From Candidatus Peregrinibacteria bacterium (lineage in GTDB: Bacteria > Patescibacteriota > Gracilibacteria > UM-FILTER-43-11), in the NCBI GenBank assembly GCA_016932495.1, contig JAFGCR010000048.1:1-41852 (forward strand): a stretch of DNA of 41,852 nucleotides. Direction: 5' to 3'. The notes below the pieces were generated by a model. It made no database searches. It saw only the letters and a list, made by a program, of their open reading frames with translations, and was not told the origin of the DNA. This document shows, in pieces, positions 2,705 through 28,995 of the stretch; position 1 is the stretch's first letter; every line of letters begins with the position of its first letter. The position numbers were made by a program, and so were the translations under genes.

Positions 2705-2758
2705 CTGAAGGCGCGGAAACGCTTCCGCGCCGGCGCGATTGCAAAATCGCGCCTTCAG
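2705..2758. repeat. REP-like double hairpin (three-way-junction palindrome)
   Basis: An outer stem CTGAA/TTCAG (2705-2709/2754-2758) encloses two perfect 9-bp hairpins: GGCGCGGAA-ACGC-TTCCGCGCC (2710-2731) and GGCGCGATT-GCAA-AATCGCGCC (2732-2753). GAAGGCG.GATT ... AATC.CGCCTTC matches the palindrome repeated inside the transposase gene at 28636-28717. It lies 24 bp after the nucleotidyltransferase stop and could also act as a terminator or mRNA stabiliser. Confidence 0.85.
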
Positions 2759-2884: not shown

Positions 2885-5230
2885 ATGTTTTCCAGATTTT
2901 CAAAAGGACTTGTCACTATTATCGTCGCTTCCCTTGTTATGGGTGTGGTGGCACTGCCTTATTCGGTTAAATCCAACTGGCCGGATAACGCGTTCGTGAA
3001 TTTTTTTAAAAACCCTAAAATCACCCTTGGTTTAGACCTGCAGGGCGGAACTCAGCTGGATTACCGCATCGACCTGCGCAACGCCTACGCCAAAAACGAA
3101 GATGATGATAAATATAATGATGTGCGCATCAACGATATCATCGAAGGCGTGCGCACCACGATTGAACGCCGGGTGAACGGACTGGGAGTTTCCGAGCCGC
3201 AGATATACCTGTCGAATGTGGCGGGCGAGGAGCACATTATTGTGGAGCTGGCGGGCATTAAGGATATCGAGGAGGCTAAAAAAGTAGTGGGGAAGACCAT
3301 TCAGCTGGAATTTAAAGAACAAAAAACAGTAATGGAAGCTGACGAAAAAGGAAAGGTCGAAGCCGAAGCAAATGCGATCCTGGCCGAAGCGCTTAAGCCC
3401 GATACGGATTTCAGGACCATCGCTTTAAATTCCCAGACCAGCGACAAAAAAATCGACTTCCGCGAGAATGAGACTCGATGGGCTTCAGAACTCCCTGCCC
3501 GTTATAAAGACCTTTTGCCGACTTTAAAGCCGCATGAGATCAACAAGGCACTGGTCGAAGGGACAGATGGCTATATTGTGGGGACGGGCGGCCAGCTGAC
3601 CGAACAAAAAGGCTTATTTATTGTCCAGTTCCTCGGCAAAGAAACAAAAGAGCGGACCAAGGAGGAAGTGAAAGAATTCCGCGAAGTGGCTGAAGCGTTT
3701 GGCAAACTGCGCGACACGGAAAATATGAAAAAACGCTCCGATTTCCCGGAAGACGTGGCCGCCATTCTTTGGGCGACTCCGGTAAATGAGCTGACAGATA
3801 TTATTGAATCCGGCAATGAATTGAAGGTTTATGAAATACTGGCAAAAGATGAAGGAGAGAGTGAAGTAAAAGCCAGCCATATCCTGATTGCTTATCAGGG
3901 CGCAGAGCGGGCCGCAGAAGATGTAACCCGCACCCAAACGGAAGCAAAAAAGGAGGCCGAACGATTATTAAAAGAAATTAAGAAGGATCCGGACCGTTTT
4001 GAAGAACTGGCTAAAGAATATTCGGATTGCACCTCGGCTTCTAACGGGGGTGACCTGGGTTTCTTCGGGACCGGTCAGATGACTCCGGCCTTTGAAGAAG
4101 CGGCTTTTGCCTTGCCGATAGGCGGAATTTCGGATGTGGTGGAAACGGAATTTGGCTATCATATTATTAAAACGACTGACAAAAAAGGCGGAGAGGAAAC
4201 CGTTTCCGTGGCCGTTCTTTCTGTGCCGAATAACGAAGCCAACCAGCAAAAACTGGAGGAAGAACTGAAACTGACCAAACCGTATGAAGTAACGGTTGAT
4301 GAGGAGGAATACAATTACCATGAACTGTTCTTCGACCTGACGCCGGACCCATGGAAATCCACGGGCCTGGATGGCGCGCATTTTAAATACGCTACCGTCA
4401 CTTATAACCAGCTCGGCTCCCCTCAGGTCAATATCGAATTCGACAGTAAGGGGGCGGATATGTTCGCGGATATCACGGAGCGGCTGGTGAATAAGCCGCT
4501 GGCGATCTTCGTGGGCGGTGAATTGATCTCCGCGCCGAATGTAAATGAAAAGATCAGCGGCGGCGCGGCCGTTATCACCGGTAATTATTCCATTACGGAG
4601 GCGCTCCAGCTGGCCAATGACTTAAACACAGGGGCCATCGACGCGCCGGTGATTCTGACGGGCCAATACACCATCAGCGCGACTTTGGGCGAAAGCGCCC
4701 TTCGTGTTTCTCTTCTGGCCGGCCTGATCGGCCTGATCATCCTGGCTCTTTATATGATTGCTTATTACCGGCTGATGGGCATCTTCGCTGTTTTTGCGCT
4801 TATCATCTATTCGATCATCATCCTCTTTGTACTTAAGACCACCGGCATTGTGATGACGCTGGCAGGCATCGCGGGCATTATCCTTTCTATTGGTATGGCG
4901 GTGGACGCGAACATCCTGATCTTCGAGCGCACAAAGGAAGAACTGAACTCCGGTAAAGGTTTTCAGGCGGCCCTTGTGGCGGGTTTTGAACGCGCCTGGT
5001 CTTCCATCCGGGATTCAAATGTCTCTTCTCTTATTACCTGCGCGATCTTATGGTTTTTCGGCAATTCCATCATCCGCGGTTTCGCCCTGATGCTGGCACT
5101 TGGTATTTTGGTTTCCATGTTTACAGCCATCACGGTCACGCGTAAATTCCTTCAGACCCTTACGGGCTCCCGGTTGGCAAAAAACCGTTTCCTGCTGGGC
5201 GTGAAGGAGATTGAGATAACGAATAGATAA
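2885..5230 (+). CDS. secD: SecD protein-export membrane subunit with embedded parvulin (PpiC) domain
   Basis: This 781-residue protein is longer than typical SecD (about 400-620). Residues 10-27 form TM1, followed by ITLGLDLQGGTQLDY, the SecD signature, and the first half of the periplasmic base (IERRVNGLGVSEPQI; TIQLEFKE). Residues 328-434 are a parvulin prolyl isomerase (VKASHILIAY, FEELAKEYSDC, GGDLGFFGTGQM, FGYHIIKTTDKK). Residues about 158-252 look like a diverged second parvulin-like unit. SecD resumes at about residue 495 (PQVNIEFDSKGADMFADIT), with TMs 2-6 at about 602-755 including GMAVDANILIFER. SecD uses the proton gradient to help SecYEG secretion; here an isomerase would sit where substrates emerge. 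No secF is adjacent. The C-terminal ITNR tail lies at the border of a repeat. Confidence 0.93.
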   Translation: MFSRFSKGLVTIIVASLVMGVVALPYSVKSNWPDNAFVNFFKNPKITLGLDLQGGTQLDYRIDLRNAYAKNEDDDKYNDVRINDIIEGVRTTIERRVNGLGVSEPQIYLSNVAGEEHIIVELAGIKDIEEAKKVVGKTIQLEFKEQKTVMEADEKGKVEAEANAILAEALKPDTDFRTIALNSQTSDKKIDFRENETRWASELPARYKDLLPTLKPHEINKALVEGTDGYIVGTGGQLTEQKGLFIVQFLGKETKERTKEEVKEFREVAEAFGKLRDTENMKKRSDFPEDVAAILWATPVNELTDIIESGNELKVYEILAKDEGESEVKASHILIAYQGAERAAEDVTRTQTEAKKEAERLLKEIKKDPDRFEELAKEYSDCTSASNGGDLGFFGTGQMTPAFEEAAFALPIGGISDVVETEFGYHIIKTTDKKGGEETVSVAVLSVPNNEANQQKLEEELKLTKPYEVTVDEEEYNYHELFFDLTPDPWKSTGLDGAHFKYATVTYNQLGSPQVNIEFDSKGADMFADITERLVNKPLAIFVGGELISAPNVNEKISGGAAVITGNYSITEALQLANDLNTGAIDAPVILTGQYTISATLGESALRVSLLAGLIGLIILALYMIAYYRLMGIFAVFALIIYSIIILFVLKTTGIVMTLAGIAGIILSIGMAVDANILIFERTKEELNSGKGFQAALVAGFERAWSSIRDSNVSSLITCAILWFFGNSIIRGFALMLALGILVSMFTAITVTRKFLQTLTGSRLAKNRFLLGVKEIEITNR

Positions 5231-5297
5231 CGAATGGACTGCGAATAGACTGCGAATGGACTGGTCAATTCGAAGTCAATACGATATCAATCCGAAC
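5220..5297. repeat. Self-complementary 11-nt word repeat (CGAATGGACTG)
   Basis: Three 11-nt units CGAATGGACTG/CGAATAGACTG are followed by three 11-nt units of TCAATNCGANN type, which are approximate reverse complements. It begins within the last codons of secD and ends one or two bases before the RNase H ATG, so it is the whole intergenic region. Related words occur at 35606-35666 and 38898-38998. Confidence 0.82.
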
Positions 5298-11939: not shown

Positions 11940-11999
11940 TGACTCGTGCCTAGTGACTAGTGACTCGCGAGACCCGAGGCACGAAGCACGAGACACGTT
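11939..11999. repeat. Self-complementary 7-nt word repeat (GACTCGT/ACGAGAC) between groES and groEL
   Basis: GACTCGT, GCCTAGT, GACTAGT and GACTCGC form the left arm. CGAGGCACGAAGCACGAG and ACACG form the reverse-complement arm. It starts right after the groES stop, inside an operon, so it would be transcribed and could fold in the groES-groEL mRNA. It shares its word with 461-529 and 21611-21679. Confidence 0.85.
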
Positions 12000-12018
12000 A
12001 AAAATTTATAATTTTTAA

Positions 12019-20362: not shown

Positions 20363-21598
20363 AACGTCCAATTTTTGCAAAACCAAAACAGAAGCAATTA
20401 TTAACCAAAATATCATGGCCAGATCATTTTTCCAGAAAGGCATATCGAACAAACCGTGAACCAGAATGCCCCATAAAGCGATGAGCGGATAGGCAAAAGA
20501 CGTATGGCATAAAACGATGAGAAACAAAAAGGCCAAAAGCCCGATCAGGCCCGCGTTGAGCCAGAAGCCGATAAAGATGTTGTGGGAATGGGGCATGTTC
20601 CATTCCAGCGGGGCGCGCTGAAGCACTTCCGGGGCATTGACCTGATAGTTCGCCTGAAAAAGCCCCGGTCCCACCCCTGTAAACACATGGCTTTTAATGA
20701 GGTGATAAGACGTTTGGTAGATTTCCAGGCGGACTGTGGTGCTGGAGCGATTTTTAAAATCCAGAAACTGCCTGAATTTAGGGGTGTTTACCTGTGTCGC
20801 AATAATCACAACAAACGTCGCCCCCAGTACCATCAAAGCCAGCCCGATCTTCTTCCGCTGTTTCGGATTTTTAAGAAAAAAGTAAAATGCATATAATCCG
20901 AGTGCGCCGAATACACCGATGATCGCGGCGTAGGATTGAGTAAAAAAGAGACTGTAGAGCAGGACGACTAACGTGGAAAGACCAATGTAATCCTGATGAG
21001 AGGGAGGGGCGGCTCCGCGCCGAAGGAGGAAATAGATGTTGATAAGGATCGCCGGAACAATGTAAAGCGCCAGGTAATTGGCGGATTCGTAAAACCCGCG
21101 CAGGCGGAGATCGATCGTTACTCCCGCGCCGAACAGGCCGAATCCGTACGCCAGCAAACAGACCAGTGTGGCGGAGTAAACAAAATAACGGAGGATCTTT
21201 TCGACGTCTTTTTCGGTTTTTAGTACCTGCGTCAGCACCGCGAAATACAAAATGGGCGCCATCACCCACCCTTTCCAGACCCCCAAAGTGGTGCGTTTAG
21301 CGTTCAGGAGTTCGCCGCTCGGCAGACTGATAAATTCCGGCGCGGCCAGGGCGCCCAGCGTGGCGCCGGCTAAGATAAAAAAAGCCGCGTACCAATACCA
21401 GCGTGTTTTTTTATCCCACACCACCTGATGATGATCCTGAAACAAGCTTAGAATCCACAAGCCGAAAACCAGATAAATGAACAGTTCGGTGGCGGTGAAT
21501 GGGATGCCAAAGGCTTGAAAACGCAGGAAATACGCCGGAAATAAGAATGGCGAAATGAATAGTAGCTTCCGGACGAATTGTGAAAGGGGTGGTTTCAT
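20318..21598 (-). CDS. O-antigen ligase/polymerase-like (Wzy_C family) membrane protein
   Basis: The 426-residue protein has about ten to twelve hydrophobic helices and the family's outside loop with FTGVGPGLFQANYQ and MPHSHNIFIGFWLNAGLIGL, in which the His residues are conserved in WaaL/Wzy-type proteins. LRLRGFYESANYLALYIV is also typical. Such proteins polymerise or ligate lipid-linked glycans at the outer face of the membrane. Substrate cannot be deduced. It sits between hpf and the CofE-like gene on the minus strand. Its extreme C-terminal tail is encoded by a word repeat and is probably not functional sequence. Confidence 0.85.
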   Translation of the reverse strand: MKPPLSQFVRKLLFISPFLFPAYFLRFQAFGIPFTATELFIYLVFGLWILSLFQDHHQVVWDKKTRWYWYAAFFILAGATLGALAAPEFISLPSGELLNAKRTTLGVWKGWVMAPILYFAVLTQVLKTEKDVEKILRYFVYSATLVCLLAYGFGLFGAGVTIDLRLRGFYESANYLALYIVPAILINIYFLLRRGAAPPSHQDYIGLSTLVVLLYSLFFTQSYAAIIGVFGALGLYAFYFFLKNPKQRKKIGLALMVLGATFVVIIATQVNTPKFRQFLDFKNRSSTTVRLEIYQTSYHLIKSHVFTGVGPGLFQANYQVNAPEVLQRAPLEWNMPHSHNIFIGFWLNAGLIGLLAFLFLIVLCHTSFAYPLIALWGILVHGLFDMPFWKNDLAMIFWLIIASVLVLQKLDVKKSRNPKSKIRKKS

Positions 21599-21610
21599 TT
21601 ATAAAATGAC

Positions 21611-21679
21611 GTGCAACGTGTCTCGTGTCTCGTGTCTAGTGAGATCACGAGTCACGAAACACGAGTCACGAGACACGAA
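21611..21679. repeat. Self-complementary 7-nt word repeat (CGTGTCT/CACGAGT)
   Basis: CGTGTCT-CGTGTCT-CGTGTCT-AGTGAG is followed by CACGAGT-CACGAAA-CACGAGT-CACGAGA-CACGAA with 7-nt period. The second arm is the reverse complement of the first. It lies directly against the hpf stop codon and fills the hpf/O-antigen-ligase gap. Same family as 461-529 and 11939-11999. Confidence 0.9.
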
Positions 21680-22249
21680 TTAGTCGTTATCCATTTTCGG
21701 CTCAATAATACCGTAATACCCGTCACTGCGCTTGTAGATCACGCTGAAGCGGTGAGTATCCATATTATTGAAAAGGAAAAAGCTGTGGCCAATCATTTCC
21801 ATCCGCTCGATCGCTTCTTCTTCGGTCATCGGCGCGTTGGCGGAAAATCGTTTTCGCCTTAAAACTTTTGGGATCTCAAATTCATCGGACGGCTTTTTGG
21901 TCTCTTCCAGTTCTTTGGCCCCCAAACCCTTTTTCTCAGAACGGTGTATTTTGGCCTTATAACGTTCAATGGGCTTGTGGATCTTGTCCAGGCAGTCATC
22001 CACCGCGTTTTCAATGCTTTCTTCGCGTGATTCAGCCCGCAGGACCGCATTCGGAGCGAAGATGGTCAGCTGGCAGGCGTACGCGTCTTCTGTTTTACGG
22101 GCTTTTTCATGCCTCACTTCCACTCTGAATTCAGCGGATTCGTCATCTAGGCGGTCAGCGAAATTTTTTAATTTTTCGACTTTGGATTTGATCAGTTCTT
22201 TTTGGGCATCGCTCAGACTAAGGTTCTGCGACTTGATTTTGATTTGCAT
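21680..22249 (-). CDS. hpf: Ribosome hibernation promoting factor, long form
   Basis: The 189-residue protein has an N-terminal HPF/RaiA ribosome-binding domain (about residues 1-105: MQIKIKSQNLSLSDAQKELI, FRVEVRHEKARKTED, ESIENAVDDCLDKIHKPIER). A charged linker leads to the C-terminal dimerisation domain (about 130-189: RKRFSANAPMTEEEAIERME, GHSFFLFNNMDTHRFSVIYK, DGYYGIIEPK). Long HPF pairs 70S ribosomes into inactive 100S dimers in slow growth. The C-terminal domain is complete. It is first in a minus-strand series with the O-antigen-ligase-like gene. No Shine-Dalgarno site. Confidence 0.95.
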   Translation of the reverse strand: MQIKIKSQNLSLSDAQKELIKSKVEKLKNFADRLDDESAEFRVEVRHEKARKTEDAYACQLTIFAPNAVLRAESREESIENAVDDCLDKIHKPIERYKAKIHRSEKKGLGAKELEETKKPSDEFEIPKVLRRKRFSANAPMTEEEAIERMEMIGHSFFLFNNMDTHRFSVIYKRSDGYYGIIEPKMDND

Positions 22250-28341: not shown

Positions 28342-28995
28342 ATGAAACTCCACCGGAATTCCCAAAAGCGCATTTATTTTAAAGATGCGATCTATTTCGT
28401 TACCTGTAAAGCTTTCGACAATTATCCGTATTTTAAGGAGCGGATATTTTGTGATTTATTTGTGGAAAATTTGCGGTTGTGCAAACGATTGAAAGGATTT
28501 TTGTTATTCGGATGGGTATTGACTTATGATCATTTCCATTTATTGGTGATGCCGGGGGATGGATTTAATATTTCGAAAATTATGCAATTTTTAAAACGAC
28601 ATATTAACCGTGATATTAATTTTTTATTGTACTCTGAAGGCGGGATTCGCGAATCCCGCCTTCGGGAAAAAATTCGCGAATCCCGCCTTCGGGAAAAAAT
28701 TCGCGAATCCCGCCTTCTGGGTGGTGAATATGAACATTTACAATCAATTATCGATGAACATGATAAAAAATTAATATTATCCCGATTACAATTTCATCAA
28801 AACCATTCCAATCCCCATTCACATCCTCCATTCCGATGGCAGGAATCATTTCATGATCATTATATTCGTAACAATCGTGATTTCGATTATCATATGGACT
28901 ATATTGAATACAATCCTGTAAAACATGATTTACCGGACAACTGGCCATATATTTTTACAAATCCGGATTATGAGGATTTGATCGATGAATGCTAA
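28342..28995 (+). CDS. REP-associated tyrosine transposase (RAYT, Y1/HUH family) with internal REP-derived repeats
   Basis: The 217-residue protein is a Y1 transposase of the TnpA_REP type. It has a strand IYFVTCKAF, the HUH metal site H64-F-H66 in LTYDHFHLLVMP, FLKRHINRDIN, then WQESFHDHYIRNNRDFDYHM and DYIEYNPVKHDLPDNW with candidate catalytic tyrosines. RAYTs process REP palindromes in bacterial chromosomes as single-copy genes. Residues 102-128 are three in-frame 9-residue repeats (IRESRLREK, IRESRLREK, IRESRLLGG) encoded by copies of a palindrome, in the linker between the HUH and Tyr parts. It lies 9 bp upstream of murJ. The repeats may disturb or merely decorate activity. Confidence 0.9.
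   Translation: MKLHRNSQKRIYFKDAIYFVTCKAFDNYPYFKERIFCDLFVENLRLCKRLKGFLLFGWVLTYDHFHLLVMPGDGFNISKIMQFLKRHINRDINFLLYSEGGIRESRLREKIRESRLREKIRESRLLGGEYEHLQSIIDEHDKKLILSRLQFHQNHSNPHSHPPFRWQESFHDHYIRNNRDFDYHMDYIEYNPVKHDLPDNWPYIFTNPDYEDLIDEC
28636..28717. repeat. In-gene palindromic tandem repeat (27-bp unit)
   Basis: A perfect 28-nt palindrome (28636-28663; half-site GAAGGCGGGATTCG) is followed by two more partial copies ATTCGCGAATCCCGCCTTC at 28672 and 28699, linked by GGGAAAAA. The unit length is 27 bp, a multiple of three, so the reading frame is kept. The palindrome matches the REP-like element at 2705-2758. Confidence 0.92.

Follow-up and report, generated by a model that had tools for sequence, protein, structure and literature searches.

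A 54-bp element at positions 2705-2758 of the window (the whole 41,852-nucleotide stretch analysed, contig C18 of the 1.175-Mb genome G000, a Patescibacteria genome of Peregrinibacteria type) is quite probably a head-to-head heterodimer of two REPs with zero spacer, that is, a REPIN-like, miniature non-autonomous element with a CT-GAAG tag, spread in trans by a REP-associated tyrosine transposase (RAYT) of the clade found in the same window. The first-pass annotation had proposed a REPIN tied to a RAYT, and this proposal is supported by the scattered copies, the compensatory changes among them and the occurrence of full copies only in genomes with a RAYT of this clade.

The element, with its hairpins in the order A-B on the + strand, follows a sugar-phosphate nucleotidyltransferase gene (1668-2681, + strand), whose stop codon lies 23 bp 5' of it, and precedes by 126 bp a secD gene (2885-5230, + strand), whose product carries a PPIC rotamase domain inserted between its SecD domains. 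The outer tag CTGAA (2705-2709), which belongs to the CT-GAAG foot, pairs with TTCAG (2754-2758) and encloses hairpin A (2710-2731; 9-bp stem GGCGCGGAA/TTCCGCGCC, loop ACGC), the more variable half, and hairpin B (2732-2753; 9-bp stem GGCGCGATT/AATCGCGCC, loop GCAA), the more conserved one. The earlier description of two hairpins with 9-bp stems and 4-nt loops within CTGAA/TTCAG in 54 bp was exact, both stems and the outer stem being perfect. Folded as single-stranded DNA, the element reached -27.2 kcal/mol compared to -12.2 ± 2.2 kcal/mol for shuffled sequences (z = -6.7). Base pairing continues beyond the element (2680-2704 with 2759-2783) into two AT-rich arms at 2682-2704 and 2759-2783, the right arm being partly complementary to the left; sequence similar to the left arm also surrounds the C32 and C45 copies. 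No intrinsic terminator (a GC stem followed by a T-run or U-tract) was found at the element, and an Rfam search with it gave no family above the gathering score. A terminator and a structured RNA family were thus rejected as its identity.

Copies of the element are dispersed in the genome. G000 was searched as joined stretches with 145 bases of contig C16 left out, and about 10 full-length copies were found between genes on different contigs, including C30, C31, C32, C39, C43, C44, C45, C47 and C10. This is a low number for a REP family. The annotation had named a unique occurrence conserved only at this locus as the observation that would speak against its proposal, and dispersed copies were found instead. 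The unit on C32 resembles the window element together with its AT-rich flanks (84.5% over 110 bp). Single-hairpin relatives were also present, for example at C23:46640, C28:24316, C16:16315 and C25:36434. The foot CTGAAGGCG occurred 52 times in G000 against 7.8 expected from base composition, and a whole-genome scan for perfect hairpins of 8 bp or more standing side by side gave 14 pairs, several of them copies of this family, against none in one shuffled genome. With regard to gene context, 13 of 16 contexts were tandem, three convergent and none divergent, so that in all 16 the element was 3' of at least one gene.

An alignment of 23 copies from eight genomes was used to examine the fold. 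All 23 have hairpin A (GGCGNGGAT-type, variable) followed by hairpin B (GGCGCGATT, conserved) on one strand, and in all 23 the two REPs are inverted as one unit, A plus reverse B, with the tags outside. The stems were paired in 96.8% of the alignment cells. Double-sided (compensatory) changes were found in 11 of the 23 base pairs, compared to a mean of 3.4 for shuffled alignments (none of 500 reached the observed number) and 0-2 for slid pairings. The outer tag pairs co-vary as well, reading CTGAA/TTCAG, CTGTA/TACAG, CCGTA/TACGG, CCGAA/TTCGG or TTGAA/TTCAA, while the loops vary freely and in intergenic copies are mostly not self-complementary. Since the spacer between the REPs is zero and the unit forms two hairpins with an outer stem rather than one long hairpin, we call it REPIN-like and not a classical REPIN. 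Read as a REP, each half is, judging from its sequence, a CT-GAAG tag followed by a palindrome. The left foot is GAAG in 21 of the 23 copies, the window copy among them, and GTAG in the copy on C43 and in G002_C56; the window element therefore differs from GTAG-tagged REPs, which have a GTAG (or GT[AG]G) foot. These two copies carry CT-GTAG or CC-GTAG, which makes GAAG look like a variant form of the GTAG guide.

The candidate mobilising enzyme is encoded at 28342-28995 (+ strand) of the window. This ORF scored 89.7 bits against NCBI model NF047646 (cut-off 80), the profile of its clade matched the solved TnpA_REP structure 4er8 (E 4e-10), and H64, H66 and Y187 of the HuH and Tyr motifs were invariant, which places it among the RAYTs (TnpA_REP). 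G000 encodes three RAYTs of this clade (the window copy and one each on C33 and C23), so a cognate RAYT is present in the genome that holds the copies. The window RAYT gene contains a palindrome with a perfect 28-bp dyad (28634-28663, + strand), followed by two more 27-nt units to 28719. It had been claimed that the element is identical in sequence to this palindrome. The 9-nt foot CTGAAGGCG is indeed common to both; beyond it the match is partial. By hand count, hairpin B on the reverse strand agrees with the palindrome at 21 of 27 positions, differing in the loop and in one compensatory base pair, and hairpin A at 15 of 27. A perfect dyad of at least 18 bp was found in the matched region of 34 of 48 RAYT loci, with 31 distinct 28-nt cores, most of which read GAAGGCG...CGCCTTC. 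These in-gene dyads are symmetric through the centre, unlike the loops of the intergenic hairpins. No full-length double was found in the scanned 500-700 bp flanks of RAYT genes; the loci mostly have in-gene palindromes, and single flanking REPs were seen at L230, L232, L253, L255, L258, L259 and L262. None was seen beside the window RAYT gene, the neighbours of which are an acetyltransferase-like gene and murJ. The comparable region of the sister species (G001) has no RAYT, and the window RAYT was therefore gained or lost there.

The distribution of the element follows that of the RAYT clade. In a class-wide survey of 242 genomes, strong full-length copies (above about 50 bits) were present in nine, and all nine had a clade RAYT, compared to 23 of the 242 overall (Fisher p = 1.2e-10, a test which ignores shared ancestry). 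Eight of these nine belong to one family, in which full copies were found in 8 of 10 RAYT-bearing genomes and in none of eight RAYT-less ones (p = 0.001, kinship ignored). The ninth genome, G061, is from another family and its candidate copy scored 50.4 bits. Weak single-hairpin matches were detected in three further genomes of the family (G005, G013 and G014), which are 79-81% complete and in which no clade RAYT was found. From these sequence relationships we infer that the element is mobilised by the RAYT. TnpA_REP is known to act on the tag together with the hairpin and to cleave at CT (PMC8266576). On this reading, single-stranded DNA of the element would form the two hairpins, with the tag stem closing them, and a clade RAYT of G000 (the window, C33 or C23 copy) would recognise the tag and the hairpins, cleave next to the tag, presumably at CT, and copy or move the unit elsewhere. 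The new sites would mostly lie directly 3' of genes, where an insertion would be tolerated.

Comparison with relatives showed that the site is occupied in G001 too, where the element is inverted together with its AT-rich arms. The two sites are identical at 92 of 103 positions when one is inverted and at 70 of 103 in direct orientation, and the outer sequence is collinear. In G003-G007, five other genera with the same nucleotidyltransferase-SecD synteny, the spacer was without the element; the corresponding spacers of G002, G008, G010 and G011 also lacked it, although there the neighbour gene differs or is unidentified. Elsewhere, the places of the G000 copies on C30, C31, C32 and C44 are taken by unrelated sequence in G001, and several orthologous spacers in G001 hold a different hairpin. 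A search at 16 elements of G000 and 16 of G001 revealed no target duplication or exact junction that would mark a clean empty site, because the spacers of the sister species diverge from end to end. At C23:46640, a single 32-bp REP lies exactly where G001 has a double, which suggests from the sequence that one hairpin was lost. The copy at C45:22180 is identical in both species (54/54) and is part of a block of about 220 bp without any difference. Strong purifying selection on this copy was rejected, since the identity spans the whole block and is thus no evidence of constraint.

The opposite orientation in the two species might reflect two independent insertions of a unit of about 105 bp at the same spot instead of an inversion in place. 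The unit with AT-rich flanks on C32 is in keeping with this, indicating that whole units may move. However, both insertions would have had to hit the same spot in a short spacer with the outer sequence left collinear, and the species pair (89%) is closer than the paralogue pair; a single inversion is simpler, and we regard two insertions as rather unlikely. In the preferred reading of a REPIN-like element spread by the RAYT, the flip would instead have arisen when the inverted arms on either side recombined or served for a template switch. The flanks bear on a more far-reaching version. The 15-base flanks of the 23 copies were complementary to each other locus by locus, with 171 pairs against 121.6 ± 9.0 for permuted flanks (0 of 5000), as in G012 (ggaagacggattttt / aaaaatccgtcttcc), G007_C2 and G006_C122, and either hairpin tips as insertion sites or growing arms are therefore needed to explain it. 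It is conceivable, although we think it unlikely, that the RAYT not only inserts the element but also flips the unit in place, and that the copies build or select a palindromic nest around themselves. In such flipping, the folded unit might be excised and joined again, or the template might be switched at its growing arms, so that the unit is inverted within inverted arms specific to its locus.

A role in RNA was considered as well, in which the double hairpin, transcribed at the 3' end of the nucleotidyltransferase mRNA, would act as a terminator or end protector and would have been passively spread and kept by the host for this use. Such a role would fit the position of all 16 copies 3' of at least one gene and of none between divergent genes, the very stable RNA fold of the element with its AT-rich arms (-40.2 kcal/mol), and the presence of another hairpin in the same spacer of the sister at several orthologous sites. 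However, there was neither a U-tract nor a match to a terminator or Rfam family, the spacers of more distant relatives at this site do without the element, and a tie to one RAYT clade is not predicted by such a role, making this account improbable; as a secondary use of a mobile element, an RNA role can exist. Still far less probable, to the point of being negligible, is a vertically conserved, site-specific part of the nucleotidyltransferase-SecD locus, such as a regulatory cruciform. Occupation of the site in both species of the genus would agree with it, but the copies scattered over unrelated loci already refute it, five other genera lack the element at the syntenic site, and its orientation is not conserved.

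The REPIN-like element can be compared with known REP systems. REPINs were described as REP doublets forming hairpins in Pseudomonas fluorescens SBW25, and the present element shares with them the inverted REP pair forming one unit, the compensatory changes, the extragenic location and the tie to a RAYT (PMC3116915). It differs in having no spacer, and hence two hairpins with a tag stem where SBW25 REPINs form one long hairpin, and in its unequal halves, its CT-GAAG tag and its number of about 10 copies against hundreds in SBW25 (PMC3116915). As far as the excerpted survey of GTAG-tagged REP families describes them, these have the same short perfect stems, outside tags, head-to-head heterodimers and position 3' of genes that are paired in tandem or convergently; the REPs of some dimers are only 1-5 bp apart, and in A. 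variabilis (GTAG-15) and H. neapolitanus dimers lie inside longer palindromes (PMC3733652). In contrast to that description, most copies here have GAAG where GTAG is expected, and the excerpt does not name Patescibacteria among its lineages (PMC3733652). The RAYT resembles TnpA_REP subclass 2.4, as outlined in part of its classification, in the in-frame REP between the HuH and Tyr motifs and in the double-foot palindromes, whereas that subclass has GT[AG]G feet and an NH[IFV]H motif and the window-RAYT clade has GAAGGCG feet and a DHFH motif (PMC6006769). On the features given there, the clade may therefore be a different subclass. Single hairpins of the family appear to lie in-frame within genes of the sister species as do Rickettsia palindromic elements (RPEs) in the same excerpted survey, unlike which the element at 2705-2758 is extragenic and RAYT-linked (PMC3733652). 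Closely spaced dimers, dimers within palindromes and REPs inside genes are already known; the tag, the lineage, the fixed polarity and the probable in-place flip are new. The finding extends the REP/RAYT system, in the form of a compact heterodimer with a tag other than GTAG, to Patescibacteria with their small genomes, and shows that very small genomes are able to maintain such elements in a family-wide association with their transposase. The roughly 10 copies per genome, the palindrome-bearing RAYT genes and the same-site flip form a natural series for testing recognition of the tag, the polarity of REPINs and how palindromic flanks arise.

Several other hairpins were noticed. Single REP hairpins apparently lie within genes of G001 (C10:34066, C11:68020-68046, C11:66202-66228, C12:75080-75106, C12:74945-74971 and C2:1668-1694) and G000 (C16:16290-16315); by eye they are read in the frame xCT-GAA-GGC, giving EGADxNPRP-like peptides within acidic regions, and resemble Rickettsia RPEs. 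In-gene palindromes of 20-52 bp, centre included, occupy about the same place in the reading frame of RAYT genes of this clade from Patescibacteria, Cloacimonadota, Spirochaetota and others, the genes on C23 and C33 of G000 included. Their perfect symmetry is striking, in-gene REPs as such being known for subclass 2.4; in the window RAYT the 27-nt unit is tripled. In the window, the spacers at 445-528, 1660-1725, 5220-5263, 11940-12005 and 21593-21680 hold long imperfect hairpins or arrays built of short repeated words (GTGTCTCGTGTCTAGTG..., CGGACATCGGACATCGG...), and the hairpins at orthologous spacers of the sister species use quite different words, indicating fast turnover at the same position. 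Triple hairpins of a second family with GTAGAGACG tags, and a second RAYT clade that bears GTAGAGACGCAAAATnTTGCGTCTCTAC inside its gene, were seen at loci in G000 (C23:65067-65147 and C40:3952-4022), G001 (C10:24552-25148) and G010 (C69).
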